Origin: Mrakia gelida
Lineage: Eukaryota; Basidiomycota; Tremellomycetes; Cystofilobasidiales; Mrakiaceae
Length of the DNA: 64,000 bases
NCBI GenBank assembly: GCA_024345305.1
Contig: BRON01000004.1
Coordinates: 2,108,001 to 2,172,000, forward strand
Direction of reading: 5' to 3'
Shown: positions 3,974 to 64,000 of the stretch, in pieces
Layout: each line of letters begins with the position of its first letter
How positions within the stretch are numbered: position 1 is the first letter of the stretch
Position numbers and translations under genes: made by a program
The notes under the pieces: generated by a model
The model's input: only the letters and a program-made list of their open reading frames with translations
Told to the model about the DNA's origin: nothing
Database searches by the model: none

Positions 3974-6900
3974 TCATCCTCTCCCACTCCCAATCAACCC
4001 TTCCCAAACTCCCCAAATCCCTCCTCCACCCAACCATCCCAGCCCAAACCTCTCTCCTCCCAGCCCCCAACCTCCCAACCCAACGCCTCTTCTCCCCTGA
4101 GCCTGAGCTCTCCAAACCCCCACTCCCACCGCTCCCACAACCACCAGCACCGCGACTCCCACCGCCCACGAGGGGATGTTGACTCCGAAGGGTAACGACG
4201 AGATCGAACGAGAGCGAGAAGGTCGACGAACGATCCTTCCTGCTCGACCCTTCTCCTCCTTCTCCCTCGCCGCGTCGTCCTCGTCCTCCTCGTCCTGAGA
4301 GTCCACGTCCTCGACAAACGAGAGGTTGACCATCTCCCCTAAGCTCGCTACAATCCGTTCGGCTTCGATCACGCGTTCCTCTTCCCTTCCGATCTCTCGC
4401 TCGTACTCGTCGTGTTCGGATGGCGTTGTCGTCGTCGAGCGGGTTTGTTGCTCAAGTCGCGTTCGCCGTTCCTCCCATTCCTCCTCGTACGTGAAAACGA
4501 CGCTCCTAGCACCCATGACTTCCCCTACTCCCACTCCACCTTCGGCGAGGGGTTTGAAGGGCGGGTGAGAGGTGTAGAGCTGAGTGGTGAGCGCGAAGAG
4601 GGTTGGGAGGGGGAGGGGTGGGTGGTTGATGGGTGTTTCCGGGGAGGAGGGGGTGGAGGTCGTTTGTGGGAGAGGAGGTGGTGGTGTGGATGAGGGCTCG
4701 GTGGTAGGTGGGGTGGTGGTGGGTGGAGTTGGGGGGTCCGTTGATGCTGGAGTCGGTGTTGGTGTCGAGGAGACGAGGAACGGAGGGAGGGACGAGAGCG
4801 TTGTGTGTAGGAGACCTGGGTCAGAGGCGAGGTAGGGCGAGAGGGTGAGGATGAGGGGTTTCTTGGAGATAATGATCTGTGAGAGCGAGGCGAAGACGCG
4901 AAGGAACTCAGAGACGAACAACACGGGCGCGTCGAACGAGGCGCAGAAGCGAGAGAGGAGACTTACAGCGACCGAAAGGTAAACGACCACAACGGGGTTA
5001 TGGCTGAGCAGGAAGTCGAAGAGGAGTTGGATGATAGGGAAGGAGTCGACGTCGTGTGAGAAGAGGGTGAGGAGCCACGAGAGAGCGAAGAACGGCAGGG
5101 GTGTTGCTCTGTTCGGACGAAACGAACGCGAAGGAGTCGACGCGTCAGTTCAGCTCAGCTCCGTCTCTCTCTATTCTCCCTCCTCGCCTTAACGAAAAAT
5201 TCACCAACACGTCAACTCACTGGTTAACAAGCTTGCTAAGTTCTGGATCCGCCACTCTCAGCAATCGTTTCATCAACCTGAAACCCAGACCAACCCAAAT
5301 CGAAAGACGCGTCAGTCCACTCGAATTCGGTCTCGGCTCGTCCTTCCCCTCATCTGCCTATCCTGCCCTGCCCTCAAGCGAGCAAGTACCACCCACCTCA
5401 GCAACCCCATAACAGGCTCCAACCCCTCTCCCATCCCATCCCTAATCCTAAACAAGCTCAACCTCTCCAAACATCTCGCACACAACTCGGCTCGTTCCCT
5501 CTCCCACGCTTCCCTCTGCTGCTTCTCCTTCTCGCTCTCCTCCTGGACTGCGAGGGAGTCTCCAGTCCCATTCACATGACCGTTCACTCCCACTCCGAAT
5601 CCAAGCCCGTTGAGCTGCTGCTGGTGTTGATGATGATGCTGGGACGGGCTCCTCGACCTCGAGTGTTGTGGCGTGTGGGAGGAAGGCGTGTGGGTCGTTG
5701 TTGCGCTGTTACTCGCAGGTAGGAGAGTCGAGAGGGGAAAGAACGTAAGGAGGAGAACGGAGGAGATGTCGTGGAAGCCCTGTTTGAACGAAACGAGCGC
5801 GTCGAGGTCAGTTCGAGCGAGCGAACGAGCGAACGAACGAGCGATAGATGGAGGAAGGGAAAGAGAGGACGACTGGCGAACCTGGAAGTACCGAAACGGA
5901 GGATGCCTCCTCATGACGGTGACGATCAGAGCATGGAGGGAGGATTGAAGGAGGAGTCTGTTCTTGTGGGTCACTGGAGGAGGAGCGAAACGAGGCGAGG
6001 GAAAGGAAGGGGAGGAAAGGGACGCGTCAGGGTCGAGTTTGTTCGTTGTTCGTTTCGCCCTTCCGCTCCCTCGTTTCCTCTCCCTTCTCTTCCAGGATAA
6101 GCATATAGAGACGAGCCCACTCACCTTCCGGCCAAACGACGAACCCCCTCCTCGTATCCAACCGAATCTGTCCTTCGTCCTTGTGAACCTCCAACTCCTC
6201 CGCTTTCCCACCTTCGAACAACCCCCACTCGATGGGAGCTGCTGCTGCTGTTGTTGTCGAGGAGGAGTAGTACGCTGGTGGTGGTGGGGAGGTAGGTGGA
6301 GGGGAGGAGGGTAAGGGTGGAAGATGAGCGAACGATTGAGAAGGGGACGGGAAGAGGAGGGAGTTGGAGGAGGTGGGTTCGTCCATCGTGGGTTGGGTTC
6401 GGTGGAAGAGGGAGGGCGAGGAGGAGCGGGAACGGGAGCGTGAGTGCGAGTCGGTTGAGGTCGAGATGATGGAAGAGGACATAGTGTTGTTGGTTTCCTT
6501 GGTGGTCGAGATGAAGGAAGAGTCGAGGATCGAAGTCGCAAGGGAGGACGAAGAGGAAGTTGAGCTCGAGCTCGCCAAGGTACCATCTCCCTTCCCTCCT
6601 CCGTTTACTCTCCCTCTCCCCTCCTCCTCGGTATCATCCGCTTCCAATCCAGCGACCCAGCTGCCCTCCATCCCATCCGTACTAGATCTCGAGCTCTCCT
6701 CCTGTTCGTGTTGATGGTGAAGGGAGGAGGTCGAGGAGGAGGAAGAAGAAGAGGAGGAGTCGGGTTGGATCCATGATTCCGAGAGTGGATGAGTCGACGA
6801 CGAGGAAAGCGAGGGAGTGAGAGATCCTTCCCTCGTAGCGGATATAGGCGTCGGAGGCAAATCCAGAGCGGGAGGAGGAGGCGAACGCTCGACGATGTTG

Positions 6901-7402: not shown

Positions 7403-9215
7403 CTAATCCAACCCACCAGCAACCTCCCCTTTCCCAACCTCCTCCTCTTCTTCCTCGTCCGAATCCAACTCGGCCCTCCTGTTCTCCTCCTCCTCAACCT
7501 TCAAAGCAGCCAAGATCTCCTCCCTGAACGCGAGCAGCTCAGCCGACGAGGGTTCGTACTCCAGTCCGAGGTTGATGGCGCTGTGAGAAACGAAAGGGGA
7601 ACGGGTGTGAGTGGGAGAAGAGGAGGAGGAGAGAGACGCGTCGCGAGAGAGAGAGAGAGATGGAAGGTGGGAGGGAGAGACTCACGAGAGAGCGTCTCGA
7701 GGCCGGGAGAGGCCGAGGAGAGCTCTGAAAGGACGGGCAGCAGGAGAGAGGATGTTCGCGTTAGTTAAAGAGAGCGAAGGAGTCGAGGCCGGGCGAGTGG
7801 AGAGAAAGAGGGACGACGAGGGAGCAAGGAATCGAGACTCACTTCGCCTTCCTGAAATGACCCTTCGACCAAGGTCGCTTCATCTTCACAACCGCATCGG
7901 CATCAGCGTAGCTTGCTGCCCACTGCGCACGAAACCAACACCAAAGCGAGAACGAGTCAGCCTTTTGTTCGAGCTCGAGCTCGAACTCGTCTCGTCCGTC
8001 CCAACCTCCCCTCCCGCCTCCCTCCCTCCCCACCCACCCACCCATCTCGCCGAAGCGAGTCAAACTCACATCTCCCATAGCTCCATACGCAGCACTCCTA
8101 TTACATAGCACAGTACTCATCTCCTCCTTGAAGATGCCCGAAGCTTCCCAGGGCATTCGTTGGGAGGCGACGGCGAGGGAGGCAGAGTAAAGGAGGATGG
8201 ATTGATCGTACGAGCGGGCTTTGAATTTGGCCTGGGAGGGTGGTGGGATGAAGAGGAGGGGGTTAGTGGGTGGGATGTGGGAGGGGGGGATGAGGGGTGT
8301 GTGGAAGAAGGGGAGAGTGAAGGTGGGGAGGAGATGGGAGAGTTGTTGAGCTTCGTTCGTTCGTTCCCTTCCTCCTTCGTGTCCTTGTCCTTCCTTCGAG
8401 CGAGTGATCCCACAGCCCCAGCCTTTCCCTTCTTCTGCGTATATATTTCCGCGTCTCCCTCGCCTCCCCTCCGTTCCCAAGCCCCGATCAAAAAAGATCC
8501 ATCCAACCTCTCTCGAGCGAAAGAACTCACATTCCCCTCATCCTTCAACTTAACGACCTGAGCGCTCCTTCCCTGATCGATCTTCTGAGGCGGCGGTGGA
8601 ATCGCCTGAGGAGGAGCCGTCTTGAACAGCTTGGCGAGCGAGTTGATCCCATCCACGATTTCGGAAGGAGTCGGATCTCCTTGGACGAGCGAAGGCGAGG
8701 ATGAGAGGAAGTCGGCGGGGAGGGAGAGAGAGTGCTCCGTTCGGTTCAGGACGAAGGGGAGGGAGGTGAAGGGCTGAGCGAAAGGGACGAGGAGAGAGGA
8801 GGTTAGTCTGTATGTGCTGCGGAAAGTAACCAACAACAACGTCCCAAGGGGGGGAGGAGGAAAGAATAGAGGCGAGCGAACGCTGGCGAGCGTCGAGCTC
8901 AACCCTCCCTTCCCTTCCCTTTGCCCTTCGGTTCGAGCGCACTCACCTCGTCGTCTATGCTAGGAAGTGTCTGCGCTCTCTGAAGGTTCTGCTGCTTGTT
9001 GTTTTCGAGCTGAGCTTGATGCTGCATCTGAGCTTGAAGGAAGGCTTGCTGTTGAGCTGGGTTCATCCCTGGTGGACCTTGGAACGTGTGGGTCGTGCCA
9101 GGAGGAGGGCCGCCTGATGTTGGTGGAGGAGGGGGAGGCGCCTGGAAACAATGGATGGTCAGCTCGATGCGTACGTTAGGAGGAGAGGGAGGAGATGGGA
9201 GCTTACGGTGGACAT
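7403..9215 (-). CDS. SEC72: ER translocation complex subunit Sec72 (TPR protein)
   Basis: Cytosolic TPR subunit of the Sec63/Sec62/Sec71/Sec72 post-translational translocon; in the family it docks Hsp70-type chaperones at the ER. The first exon is only MST; exon 2 is a Pro/Gln-rich N-terminus ending QTLPSIDDE. Then come the family core (FVLNRTEHSLSLPADFLSS, VQGDPTPSEIVDGINSLAKL), TPR-like helices (AKFKARSYDQSILLYSASLA, EEMSTVLCNRSAAYGAMGD, ASYADADAVVKMKRPWSKGH, FRKAKALLGLSRPRDAL) and AINLGLEYEPSSAELLAFRE with an acidic end. The start at 9215 is fixed by the in-phase MST/APPPPP splice. Length and order fit the family. The Cns1/TTC4 co-chaperones are related TPR proteins, but the LSLPADFLSS...EIVDGIN block is specific to Sec72. 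Confidence 0.92.
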
Positions 9216-59207: not shown

Positions 59208-61057
59208 ACTCTTCTCCTCTCCCACTTCCGACAACCTTGCTTCACTCGCCGTCTCTTTGCTTTCAAACACGCTCCTCCTTGCTTTTTCACCACCTCCTCT
59301 CGCTCGCTCGCTCGCTCTTTCATTTCCCCTCTCGTTCGCTCGCTCGCTCGCTAGCTTTCTTCTCTTCTTCACTCCTCATCGGTCAACTACAGTAGGCATC
59401 CATCCTCACATCTTTCATGCATTTTCTTTCCAACTTCTCGAAGAAGGCAGGGAGGGAGGGGGTCGGTCGGCAAACGGGATAACCTGACCTCTCCTTTCGT
59501 TCCGTCGTCCAACTGAAACCACGTTTTCTTTGTAGCCCTAGTGCGGGAGCATCGTCCCCGACCTTTGCGACTCGATTACATGCTCGCTGGAGCGTTTATA
59601 TCGGCCTCGATCGACGCGTCGCGTCTGCGCAGCAGCTGTCGACAAACGCGTTTATTTGCTCCTCACGGGTCAGTTTTGCGCAGATTTTGATGCTATTTGG
59701 TAAATGAGACCGTCTATAGTATATCGATCCACACACCAACTCGTGCAACGATCCGTGGACTGCGCGGGTGTTTGTTTTCGTTTCGTAGCGTTCGTCGCCA
59801 GGGACTCGGACGCGTCTTTTCAGACAGGTCAGAACATGAAGGGAGAGCGCAAACACTCAGCCTCAGGGAAGCGGTCAGGGAAGCGGTCAGATTACTGCTA
59901 GAACATCAGCAGAGTCGTTTCCATTCAGCCACTACCTACGAGATGCATCCAAAGTCATCTCATCAACAAGAAGAAGAGCGGAAGCAGTAGAGATCAAGCG
60001 AAAACAAGAATCTAACCCAGCCAGCCTGAGACGCGTCTTTCTTCGTTTTCAACCTTCCTCCCCTCCTGCACCACCAACCAGACCTCGGATCTCTACCAAA
60101 ACACTTCCCAGACCTCGTACTAGTATGGAGAATCAAGAAAAAGGTCCGTAAACCTTTGTACCCCCAGATGCTGCTACAAGATCAGCTCGACACTGACAAC
60201 GCGTCTTCACCCCCTCCCCGTCCATTCACAAGCGAACAGATCGTTCTCAACACCCAGACCAGCCAGCTAGGTGAAAATTGGTACCCAACTCAGTCGCTAC
60301 GTATACATTGATGATCCAAAGTCAGATTTGAGCTGGACCTCTTTTGCAGTAAATTCTCACCGCTGCCTGCTTCAACCTTCAGCTCAACTCAACTGCGACG
60401 GCCCGTTCTATACCGAATACTGCACCGATCGATTCAAACTCACTTCCCAGCTGGAACTACATCCAAACACGTTTGGAAATCAACTCCAAAACCTACTCAC
60501 CCCCGGAAACAGACATTCCGCTCTCCACGTCCGTTCAGCGTCTATTTACGCAGGTTGACCCTAAGCGTGCCCTTCTATCGAGGGGTACAGACTTCTCGGC
60601 ATCTTTAATCATCAAAGGTAGTCTGTTGCGTTCATTTGGTGAAGCAGCACAGCCCAGATCAACGTTCAACGTAGGAATCAAGCCAGCCGTCTTCCAAGTT
60701 GCGTCCAACTCCTCCTCCCGTCTTCCCTGTCCCTTAGAATCTACTTCCACTGCCCTCCCCACCTCGGGAATCTTTCTAAACTCAATAAACATGTTCAACA
60801 GTCAACGTTTCAAGGCCAAAACCTACTCACCCCTAGATTCCACTTCTCGAGGAGGACGCGTCGCGCAAGGGGTTTAAAACAAGTCGCGTCCACTTCCGAC
60901 GTTATCTAGTAGAGTAATCCTCTTGCTACCACTTCTCAGCCATCACCTAGGATGGTTACTTCAACTTAAAGAGCGTCAGAGCAATGGGTAATGGCTTCCA
61001 GTTAAATTTGAGCCAGCAAGGGAAGCCAACGGTTGAGACGCGTCCCATCTCCTAACC
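59208..61057. other. gene-poor flank with possible gene remnants
   Basis: No intact gene. CGCT/TCGC tetranucleotide runs occupy about 59,293-59,352. GACGCGTC occurs at about 59,613, 59,810, 60,030, 60,856 and 61,036, now outside recognisable introns. A stretch at 60,170-60,310 reads MLLQDQLDTDNASSPPPRPF TSEQIVLNTQTSQLGENWYP and stops; the string AAAACCTACTCACCCC occurs twice (about 60,487 and 60,820). A plus-strand open frame at 60,473-60,877 (134 codons) has no recognisable motif. I read this as decayed coding and repeat material. Confidence 0.4.
59293..59352. repeat. (CGCT)n tetranucleotide runs
   Basis: Two clusters of CGCT/CTCG repeats separated by about 15 bases, just downstream of the STRAP-like gene. 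Confidence 0.85.
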
Positions 61058-61187
61058 GTATGCGCCCCGTTCCAACGCGTTGGAACGGTCGTTTCCGTCA
61101 AGTCGACTTGACGGATCCGTCAAGTCCGAGCGTTCCAACAGGACTTGACGGACTTGACGGACTTTGCGTCGCTTCGTTCTCCCTCCC
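61058..61187. mobile_element. nested-palindrome element, copy 1
   Basis: Begins GTATGCGCCCCGTTCC and ends near GCTTCGTTCTCCCTCCCCT. It contains a perfect 22-bp palindrome at 61,067-61,088 (arms CCGTTCC, centre AACGCGTT), a second at 61,094-61,115 and a third, overlapping, at 61,105-61,126. The last two are built from the 10-base word TCCGTCAAGT, present forward at 61,094 and 61,116 and reversed (ACTTGACGGA) at 61,106, 61,143 and 61,152. The match to the copy at 63,869 is scaffold-only. Classing it as mobile is inference from its two-copy, unrelated-flank occurrence; no transposase is seen. Confidence 0.6.
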
Positions 61188-62539
61188 CTCCCCACCGAAT
61201 TGCGAGCGGGAAAAACGACCAGCTAGATCTACCTATGAAGTACAATGTATCAGATGCACAGCTGTATACGAGAAAAGCTGCATCGTCGACAGATATTCTC
61301 CCGAGAGGTACCTCAAAACGATGAAGAGGGCGAGCTCGAGCTGACTTCCGCGAGTTCTTTTCGGGGGAGCTCCATCCTCTCTCTTTTAGCTGCACTGTAT
61401 ATTCAAGGCCGAAACCGCGGATTGTAAAGGGCTGGAGTCGTTCGTACGTAGCTCTATTATGTCCCGTAAAGAGGGCTTAGCTCTAGAGTGAAGATTTGCC
61501 GACGTCTCGAGGTTGAAACGTATGAGCTCAAGCTCACCTCCCAGCTCCTCCTCCTTTCTCCTATGCGAGTCTGAGCCTCGTGGTAAGAAAAGTTGCTCGC
61601 TCGAAGGAGGAACGTGTTCTTTATATCCGGCCTCCTGACTAATATGTTTTCAGATTTCGAGTTACTGCTAGAGTCGTTGCGCAGCGGCAGCGAACCTGTC
61701 GATGGAAGGGCCCTCTCGTTCGTTCAAGCTCAACCCCCATCTTCCCTTGCCCCTCGCTCTATACATGCGCTTCCCCCTTGCCCCTCCTTCTCCATTATGA
61801 GTCTATGGTAGTATAGGAGTAGCCCTATCCACTTTTTATCTTTCGCTAGGGTTGGATGCAGGAGAAAATGAGCTCGATCAATGTGAGCTCCACCTCCACC
61901 TCCTCCCCTTCCTTCCCTCCATCTTCTCTCCTTCCGTTCTCCTCACCTCTTGCTCGGATCGCAATGGGACTTCGGGGGTATAGTAGGGCAGCTAGGGTGC
62001 CTAGGTGGAAGGTCTCAGATTTCGAGGGATGTATACGGTTGAGGCTCCTCGCTCATGCAGTCTTGTTGAGCTTGACTCTCCTTCCTCCCATGCATCCGAT
62101 GCTGCTGAGACTCTCGTACTCACTCTATCTTCTCATTCTCTCTTTCCTACCACTCTAGTATACCTCCTCTTCCATCGCGAAACACTCCCACTACCCCTCT
62201 TGCTCCACCTCTCCCTCCCTCGACCTCCCCACTCCATGCGCTGGCAGCTCGACCTTTCTCCTTCCTTTCCTTTGTCGAAGCTGTCGAGACGAGTTCTTGC
62301 TCCCTTTCCTCCCTTCTGGCGAATACATCCGGCTTATATATAGTGGGCCCATAGTTGGAGAAGTAGAGGGATACTGTAGGAGTGTTGGAAGGCCTCTCTC
62401 GGTCGTCGAGTCGGCTTGCGTTGAGCTCACCTCTCCTCCCCTTCCCTCCATCTCGACCTTGCCTCCCTTCGACGTTCGTCAGTTCTTCCGTGGCACTGCT
62501 AGATGACCTACCTATGATCTCGTATTGCTTCGCTGACTC
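61188..62539. other. gene-poor region with exon/intron debris
   Basis: Several short segments look like exons bordered by this genome's intron style, though the whole does not assemble into a gene. At about 61,222-61,320 the text EVQCIRCTAVYEKSCIVDRY (C-x2-C) runs to KTMKR, followed by an intron-like stretch (GCGAGC start, GAGCTGACTT, CTCTTTTAG at about 61,389). Similar intron-like strings with GAGCTCACCTCC occur at about 61,530, 61,880 and 62,420. Cryptic TATATA at about 62,335. Best read as decayed gene or transposon fragments. Confidence 0.35.
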
Positions 62540-63790
62540 TCTGGGTATGTTCAGTGCCGCTCTAGCTGCGGAGTTGGGAGTGCTCGGAAGTGGGTGCGAG
62601 ATGGTGGACGCGCTCTTCGACGGCTACTAGAACATGAACGGGCGCACCTGTATACTCGCGGGCATATGCGATCGAAAGGGAATTGAAAGTCGGTTTCAAC
62701 TATGAATCACTCGAGGTGATCTATACGAGATGGAAGCGATCAATTCGGGACTTCTCCTTCCAGTCACGTCCTCCCTTCTTCCAGCCAAGTTCGACTTGCT
62801 CAAATCTTCTCTGAGCTGATCGAAACCAATTCGGATCATCTCTAGTAGTCTTGGCGGTTCTCCCAATATGTTCGGTGCCGCTCCAGCTGTTCTGGGTCCG
62901 AAGTTAAAAGTGTTCGCAAGCGGATACGAGAGGGTGGACACGCCGTTAGACGGCTACTAAGACATGATTGAGACCACCTCTATACTCGTAGGTATATGCG
63001 ATCGAAAGGGAATTGAAATTCGGTTTCAACTATGAATCACTCGAGGTGATCTACATCAGATGGAAGCGATCGATCTAGGACTTCTCCTTCCAGTCGCGTC
63101 CTCCCTTCTTCCAGCCAAGTTCGACTTGCTCAAATCTTCTCTGAGCTGATCGAAACCAATTCGGATCATCTCTAGTAGTCTTGATGGGTCTCCCAATTTA
63201 TTCGGTGCCGCTCCAGCTGCTCTGGGTCCGAAGTTAAAAGTGTTTGTAAGTGGGTGCGAGATGGTGGACGCGCTCTTCAACGGCTACTAGAACATGAACG
63301 GGCGCACCTGTATACTCCCGGGCATACGCGATCAAAAGGGAATTCAAATTCGGTTTCAACTATGAATCACTCGAGGAGATCTATACGAGGCGGAAGAAGT
63401 CGTTTCGTGATCCCTTGTTCATGTCGCGTCCTCTCCCCTCTTGTGCCAGTTCGACTCACTCAAATTTTCTCTCAGCTGGTCGAAACCAACGCAGATCATC
63501 TCAGGTGCCTTTGAGGGTTCTCTCAATATGTTTGATGCCACTCCAGCTGCTTGGGGCCCGAACTGGGGGTGCTCGCGAAGAGATGCAAGAGCGTGGACAT
63601 ACTTTTCACCGGCTAGGAGAACACGAACGAAACCACCACTATAGTCGTGGGTATATGCGATCGAAAGGGAATTCAAATTCGGTTTCAACTTTGAATCACT
63701 CGAGGTGATCTATAGGAGATGAAAGGGATCGTCTCATGACTCTTCGTTCCAGTCACGTCCTTCCTTCTGACGAAGCACCCTTCCCTGACC
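62540..63790. repeat. tandem repeat with 330-bp period, about 3.7 copies
   Basis: The landmark TGAATCACTCGAGG starts at 62,703, 63,033, 63,363 and 63,692, i.e. 330, 330 and 329 bp apart. Copies 2 and 3 are nearly identical over long stretches; copies 1 and 4 are more diverged, with a small deletion in copy 1. Every copy keeps ATATGTTC/ATTCGGTGCCGCTC and AAATCTTCTCTGAGCTGATC-like blocks. On the minus strand the repeat carries open stretches with EMIRIGFDQLREDLSKSNLA, interrupted by a stop in each unit. A subtelomeric satellite is the likeliest reading. Confidence 0.85.
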
Positions 63791-63868
63791 TGCTCAAGTT
63801 GCCACTGATCTACTTTCCAGCAATGAAGACAGTCTTGAAAAGTGAAAACAACTAGCTGAAACCTAACG

Positions 63869-64000
63869 GTATGCGCCCCGTTCCTGCTAGCAGGAACGGG
63901 CCTCTGCGTACCCTCGAGGGTACGCATGCGTACCCTCCGACCGTTCCTGGCGCCTTTCCGGAGGGTACGCAACCTGCGCGGCTTCGTTCCTCCCTCCCCT
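63869..64000. mobile_element. nested-palindrome element, copy 2, cut by window end
   Basis: Same scaffold as copy 1 (GTATGCGCCCCGTTCC ... GGCTTCGTTCCTCCCTCCCC). Perfect 22-bp palindromes lie at 63,878-63,899 (arms CCGTTCC, centre TGCTAGCA), 63,905-63,926 and 63,916-63,937. The word is now TGCGTACCCT: forward at 63,905 and 63,927, reversed (AGGGTACGCA) at 63,917 and 63,962. The distance between first and second palindrome starts is 27 bp in both copies. The 3' limit lies outside the window. Confidence 0.6.

Follow-up and report, generated by a model that had tools for sequence, protein, structure and literature searches.

The analysed stretch (hereafter the window) comprises 64,000 nt of the Mrakia gelida genome, positions 2108001-2172000 of contig C4 (BRON01000004.1; 2,184,394 nt), one of the 25 contigs of a 34.86-Mb assembly (GCA_024345305.1). 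The right end of C4 (2.18 Mb) lies 12.4 kb beyond the last base of the window. The window contains a 653-aa open reading frame (ORF) with 75% identity to a Mrakia frigida protein and, near its right edge, two palindrome-rich blocks (copies 1 and 2, Table 1), which are the heads of a subtelomeric repeat family whose full-length members carry an SF2 helicase gene. Six of the seven perfect palindromes of at least 20 bp in the window fall in the two blocks, the seventh being at 7967-7986, and within each block the second and third palindromes overlap by 11 nt. The opening shared by the blocks, allowing three mismatches, occurs at exactly two window sites, both of them the blocks, while dinucleotide shuffles of the window gave a mean of 0.31 matches and reached two in 4 of 100 cases. 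The window letters bear out the original prediction on the palindromes, their 27-bp spacing, the altered words and the altered centre of the first palindrome. The limits given there for the blocks need revision, as homology does not close at the CT-rich tail but extends for ~2.8 kb, and the shared start lies earlier, at C61052 and C63863 (CTAAC).

The opening (GTATGCGCCCCGTTCC) has 68 matches in the genome at up to two mismatches against six for a reversed control. The arm pattern CCGTTCC-N8-GGAACGG, with at most one mismatch allowed, is present 91 times and its control never. Together with the shuffles, these counts rule out chance or an isolated rearrangement as the origin of the blocks. Altogether 77 heads were located (76 of the 91 arm-pattern sites and a C6 copy found separately), of which 74 were parsed and three read by eye. 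The nearer contig end is faced by 73 of the 74 parsed heads, and for 72 the distance to the end toward which they point is no more than 35 kb; the exceptions are C15:1069039, at 197 kb, and C23:131278, which points to the farther end at 131 kb. Heads occur in 35 of 50 contig-and-direction combinations (34 without the interior C23 copy). Of the 20 left contig ends retrieved, six start with CCCTAA repeats. Whole chromosome ends have clearly been duplicated, two sets of four copies each having one common junction flank. The original prediction was right in assigning the blocks to a mobile-type element.

The head start, CTAA..TATGCG, is found at one fixed point in 71 of the 74 parsed heads, and these give 63 distinct flanks; the nucleotides between CTAA and TATGCG differ by lineage. 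The base preceding CTAA is C in 38 of these flanks, T in 18, G in six and A in one. For 35 flanks the fetched loci include an uninterrupted copy (up to three mismatches); 34 of these have C as the first target base (background frequency of C 0.29), the sole non-C target being a telomere-repeat exception, and 19 have T as the second. The flanks are otherwise arbitrary; only two of the 63 abut TTAGGG, the unparsed C24 head also lies near telomere-like repeats, and the joint at C15:4074 retains an extra telomere-like unit (CTAACCCTAAC). The outer strand of the head ends in ..CGCATAC-NN-GTTAG, and GRR is then supplied by the target, so that the joint reads as one telomere repeat. New heads sit on truncated older copies, at spacings of 362, 413 and 381 nt at C4 and C13 and of 142 nt at C22, which shows that each event replaces distal DNA in a one-ended, terminal addition. 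No distal flank was seen: the copies stack outward, the older ones being cut on the telomere side by the next head, and target-site duplications are not visible because only one side of the joint survives. Attachment is one-sided and terminal, at YC, with outward stacking. Three pairs of different heads have flanks that are the same or one base apart (C5:2052386 and C16:1238789; C4:12306 and C4:14404; C10:1577005 and C11:26270), representing either target hot spots or later distal exchange.

The head folds into three hairpins, H1 and H2 (each 9 bp with a tetraloop) and H3 (11-14 bp, with CGTTCC in its loop), the folding z-scores being -5.2 to -6.2. H3 is perfect over 11 bp in all 74 parsed heads, which carry seven different words, and all eight variable pairs change on both sides. 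Among the 27 distinct heads none of the 297 cells is mismatched and none holds G-T or A-C, while 2000 shuffles of the 3' arm gave a mean of 106 mismatches and a minimum of 59. In the three unparsed heads H3 is paired by eye; in the C24 one an eighth word forms 9 bp. Perfect pairing is seen for H1 in 70 of 74 heads and for H2 in 46 of 71, the 12 mismatched H2 cells being T-C (seven), G-A (four) and A-C (one). The first word (W1) equals the second (W2) in 47 of 71 heads and differs in 24; W1' complements W2 in 66 of 71. Two heads with a common flank carry one word in H2 and a different one in H3. As W1 so often departs from W2 but H3 is perfect throughout, it is the pairing that is kept, not a repeated site. 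An outer closing stem (CTAAC/CGTT) appears in the folds and is not supported by covariation judged by eye. A known Rfam RNA or self-cleaving ribozyme was rejected on a scan of the head region of copy 1, where the best Rfam match (E 0.52) was below the gathering score and none was a ribozyme.

Some loops exist as reverse-complement pairs (CCTC/GAGG in H1, CCAG/CTGG in H2), a pattern that occasional inversion of a hairpin during copying or recombination would produce. The H1 spacers TGCCTCCA (21 heads) and TGGAGGCA (five) are also reverse complements. Positions 8-9 of H1 track the loop of H3, AA (29) and TA (two) going with CGTTCCAAC, and TG with CGTTCCAGC (32) or CGTTCCTGG (11). A rapid tree built from the neighbouring 280 nt (72 of the 74 rows, two heads being too short; SH-aLRT support only) requires at least 14 changes of the H3 word and at least 18 of the H1 type; supported branches force at least four changes for TCCGTGGAGTC and at least three for TCCGGGTAGTC, and TCCGTCAAGTC occurs in two separate clades. 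The words cluster by lineage, yet patchily. Cassette exchange would be the simplest reading of this history, repeated origin or loss being possible as well. The two window copies are two lineages with different cassettes from the seven-word H3 repertoire, rather than one rewritten copy or members of a family sharing one word. We agree with the original prediction that point mutation alone is insufficient for this pattern. Its proposal that hairpins are copied by a template is possible, in view of the lack of G-T and A-C intermediates in the 27 distinct H3 stems and of loops in both orientations, and is indistinguishable from selection for pairing.

A full element consists of the head, the multi-exon SF2 helicase gene, a 2.4-kb tail and a nearly C-free tip, followed by TTAGGG. 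Homology is conserved for ~685 nt from the head, after which the copies split. Full-length copies (L013 and the left end of C3) continue into a ~7.7-kb body and then the tail with its 330-nt tandem repeats, which corresponds to window positions 61433-63862; several heads lie 11.3-11.7 kb from a contig end, which fits a full element of ~11 kb. A 300-nt segment (61433-61734) flanks the body on both sides in L013, and copy 1 therefore looks like the product of a deletion of the helicase body between direct repeats. At six telomere-bearing ends (L011, L022, L026, L015, L023 and L027; roughly the outermost 0.8 kb of each contig) the telomere-ward strand contains no C at all over the last 120-396 nt before the array and almost none over ~300-600 nt, with an abrupt return to mostly 16-33% C further in. 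Because joining depends on a C in the target, a head could not attach within this tip. On C17 (L025) telomere repeats stand directly on a truncated head region, and the interior C23 copy runs through its tail into a stretch resembling the copia-type region of L025. In that subtelomere an 818-aa ORF (L025:270-2723) has an RVT_2 (copia-type) domain, and a close match to it adjoins the interior C23 head. At C15:1074.4 kb (L086, about base 5040) a truncated element abuts an inverted CCCTAA array within the contig, which is an end-to-end chromosome fusion scar or a misassembly; a two-ended internal insertion was considered for this C15 copy and rejected, as the copy stops at the inverted array. Outside the telomere array, the left end of C1 (L009, about bases 1-970) carries what we take, by eye, to be cloning vector with an I-CeuI site and an F-plasmid-like ccd region, probably an assembly leftover.

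Table 1. Features of the two palindrome blocks and adjoining element regions in the window (positions counted from the first base of the window).
Feature	Position	Strand	Remarks
Head of copy 1	61052..61180	+	shared target/element C at 61052, then TAACCGTATGCGCC, H1, H2, H3, TTGCGTCGCTTCGTTC
Perfect palindromes, copy 1	61067-61088, 61094-61115, 61105-61126
Hairpin H1, copy 1	61067..61088	+	CCGTTCCAA-CGCG-TTGGAACGG
Hairpin H2, copy 1	61094..61115	+	word TCCGTCAAG, loop TCGA, complement
Hairpin H3, copy 1	61116..61161	+	TCCGTCAAGTCC, loop with CGTTCCAAC, complement; two in tandem
Remainder of conserved ~685-nt head region, copy 1	61181..61734	+	61433-61734 also beyond the helicase body in full-length L013
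Tail region common to full-length elements, copy 1	61433..63862	+	without helicase body in copy 1
330-nt tandem repeats in tail of copy 1, four copies	62546..63844	+
Head of copy 2	63863..64000	+	on truncated tail of copy 1; shared C at 63863; continues past window end
Perfect palindromes, copy 2	63877-63900 (24 bp), 63905-63926, 63916-63937
Hairpin H1, copy 2	63877..63900	+	CCCGTTCCTG-CTAG-CAGGAACGGG
Hairpin H2, copy 2	63905..63926	+	TGCGTACCC, loop TCGA, complement
Hairpin H3, copy 2	63927..63971	+	TGCGTACCCTCCG, loop with CGTTCCTGG, complement

The body protein, encoded by several exons reading toward the telomere (exon model built by hand), is an SF2 helicase (DEAD 1.6e-6, Helicase_C 5e-5, both above the Pfam cut-offs); an N-terminal zinc-finger-like stretch (E 0.01) and an OrsD match in the element (E 0.0013) are below them. 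This gene is the ORF linked to the palindromes. It is absent from copy 1 and outside the window for copy 2, whose exon B lies at C4:2176314-2177477 on the plus strand, 4.4 kb past the head. In the best-periodic 300 nt of a comparison between copies, 134 of 138 mismatches fall at third codon positions, indicating purifying selection on the helicase gene. Introns are kept in all checkable cases (A 14/14, B 7/7, B2 9/9, C 5/5), which rules out retroposition of a sense mRNA. Exon B has 29 full-length matches among those listed, all near contig ends and 96-100% identical. Some 88 kb inside a contig lies an older, diverged relative of exon B, with 56-64% identity to it (C3:2253205-2253954, L088). 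A homologue search with the helicase protein was unproductive.

Exon B also contains the ordered motifs GGRASEL, QTVRH and QRGHSLKTDEAAY, a combination that 60,000 shuffles never produced (the last two by themselves came up in 14). Of the tyrosine recombinase set (R..K..HxxR..H/W..Y), R, K (by eye), R, H and Y are present in exon B, the HxxR position reading QxxR, and the H-to-Y spacing of nine residues is that of XerC, XerD, FimB and FimE. The L088 paralogue keeps the motifs past the first, GGRASEL not being seen upstream there. A profile comparison with the four recombinases (hhalign) gave E 0.57; searches of exon B against Pfam, PHROGs, NCBIfam and PDB gave no relevant match, a single Pfam NAD_binding_8 hit (E 0.17) being taken as chance, and Phage_integrase has no match anywhere in the genome. 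The recombinase-like motifs are best regarded as putative and suggestive. RVT_1 has 20 hits in the genome, of which 16 are open frames 1246-1493 aa long, a type present on either strand and also at sites without heads nearby. Three frames (~1435-1442 aa) lie between heads in subtelomeric arrays (C3:2322970+, C10:13161- and C18:26126+); a reverse transcriptase (RT) acting in trans is thus available. The element does not match a Helitron, which would carry a Rep/helicase gene: only two Helitron_like_N fragments, both on C21, were found in the genome.

These observations make it reasonably probable, in our view, that the palindrome block serves as attachment head to a mobile element which is directed to telomeres and has a telomere-linked-helicase-type gene, with the hairpins as a folded joining signal. 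The 3' terminus of an eroded or broken chromosome, ...YC (often ...YCT), would anneal through 1-3 nt to the head's outer strand and be joined to it or extended along it, and the chromosome would thereby receive a ready-made subtelomere and telomere. The three hairpins, chiefly H3, would act as a folded single-stranded DNA or RNA signal that defines and presents the end. Under a constraint on pairing alone, compensatory or hairpin-templated changes could let the words drift, and recombination could swap entire cassettes among elements. Several points weigh against this reading. The part of the hairpins in joining is suggested by position and conservation only. No joining enzyme came to light: the ORFs scanned in the repeated body contain no RT domain, and by sequence nothing could be assigned to a known family of nucleases or recombinases. 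H2 is absent from three of the 74 heads, CTAA is missing from three of the 74, and H1 is broken in the C6 copy, one of the three heads read by eye. In a looser alignment of the flanks some diverged relatives continue with a base other than C, and the located heads cover 76 of the 91 arm-pattern sites. Copies derived from duplicated chromosome ends cannot count as independent, a good many flanks are themselves within other family copies, and every site comes from one assembly, which contains apparent vector and what looks like a fused end.

The plainest form of the attachment reading is DNA end joining, with antisense reverse transcription and a recombinase as its rivals. In the former, a transcript running from the telomere inward would end 3' in the hairpins and ...GUUAG, and an RT supplied in trans (telomerase or other) would prime on the chromosome 3' end. 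Such a route would have the same outcome as that of endonuclease (EN)-deficient Penelope-like elements (PLEs), namely a constant attached end and another end truncated and telomere-capped, at chromosome ends only (PMC3846280, in the extract available). The invariant C and the enrichment of T fit terminal primer-template pairing, and the extra unit at C15:4074 and the three RVT_1 ORFs between heads on C3, C10 and C18 point the same way. However, the repeated body yielded no RT domain in the ORFs scanned, most RVT_1 frames (16/20) also occur elsewhere, on both strands, and the kept introns exclude sense mRNA, but leave antisense RNA, for the template; we regard this route as possible but doubtful. 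We are likewise only tentative about the recombinase, in which a putative tyrosine-recombinase domain of the helicase protein (R..E, K, RH, GH-9-Y) would act on the head palindromes with H1 as core site. The fixed 7-bp arms and free 8-bp spacer of H1 would explain the palindromes, the spacer changes and the inverted spacers (TGCCTCCA and TGGAGGCA), and the shuffles, the Xer/Fim-like H-Y spacing and the persistence of the later motifs in the 56-64% identical paralogue add to the case. Against it stand the non-significant profile comparison, the lack of any relevant match in the four databases and of Phage_integrase in the genome, the Q at the position of the first catalytic histidine, the missing GGRASEL of the paralogue, and the junctions, which lie 14 nt outside H1 and not within its spacer; the motifs were, moreover, picked after looking. 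It is rather unlikely that a single protein combines tyrosine recombinase and SF2 helicase, and that a folded, sequence-free hairpin head welds an entire subtelomere and telomere onto any broken YC end, as a recombinase-based means of chromosome healing beside telomerase.

Two further explanations appear improbable. Ordinary Y'-like subtelomeric repeats might spread only by homologous recombination and break-induced replication, the hairpins marking a fragile site. The duplication of whole ends (two four-copy sets, one flank each) and the apparent recombination of cassettes are in line with this, but it would not give one exact start on ~60 flank positions, nor a near-invariant target C. Equally hard to sustain is the view, put forward in the original prediction, that the words are DNA-binding sites of a co-evolving element-specific protein. 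The words mostly match within an element and cluster by lineage, as such sites might, but the claimed change of a repeated word everywhere at once is weakened by the 24 of 71 heads with unequal words, a site model does not need the perfect W2:W2' pairing, and exon B is 96-100% identical among the 29 full-length matches listed. Under the attachment-head reading, a telomere-linked helicase gene is part of a unit whose joining end is exact and whose target rule is YC, which makes its movement directly testable. If the head is a joining signal, chromosome ends could be rebuilt without long homology and with no RT found in the element. The hairpins in addition constitute a natural record of stem evolution, with seven words, perfect H3 pairing and half-finished changes in H2.

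Literature searches, confined to open-access papers, brought up no account of an element of this kind. Among known systems, the palindromes recall the mitochondrial double-hairpin elements and GC clusters, in which palindrome structure is conserved and shuffled between copies (PMC4478555, in the extract available). Those elements are short, free-standing mitochondrial units, unlike the Mrakia heads, which are nuclear and subtelomeric, on contigs with TTAGGG ends, and sit in one orientation on a ~11-kb element. Cryptons are tyrosine recombinase elements, and with such elements (Xer and Fim serving as yardsticks) the Mrakia element may share the motif set and its spacing as well as palindromic sites with a free spacer; it differs in giving no statistical sequence match and in having its insertion joint outside the palindrome. 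MoTeR and FoTeR elements form arrays at chromosome ends, as the Mrakia heads do, and FoTeRs are frequently neighbours of helicase genes (PMC12857005, in the extract available). Both carry RT, to which FoTeRs add a REL endonuclease domain, and both lie in telomere repeats. In Mrakia only two of the 63 distinct flanks abut TTAGGG. HeT-A has its constant end on chromosome termini, with a gene direction opposite to that of the telomere-ward Mrakia gene. For EN-deficient PLEs, too, the extract of PMC3846280 describes a constant end on exposed termini, the other end being truncated and telomere-capped. The Mrakia element shows this same arrangement, but differs from both in keeping its introns, in having a hairpin cassette at the joint and in showing no RT of its own in the scanned ORFs of its body.

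Genes for telomere-linked helicases are widespread at the chromosome ends of fungi, where their role is unsettled, and S. pombe tlh and yeast Y' are further repeats of this kind. We know of no exact head comparable to that of Mrakia in the U. maydis UTASa/UT5, S. pombe tlh or yeast Y' repeats. The Mrakia element likewise has an SF2/RecQ-like helicase gene beside telomere repeats, with RecQ subfamily membership at most putative, and, as far as the extract on U. maydis goes, is like UTASa/UT5 in being subtelomeric and multicopy with a helicase-like gene next to the telomere. That extract places an OrsD domain nearby and does not mention a comparable head (PMC10532341). What sets the Mrakia element apart from the telomere-linked helicase repeats is an exact, structured and self-defining head, joined at one end to arbitrary DNA at a C.

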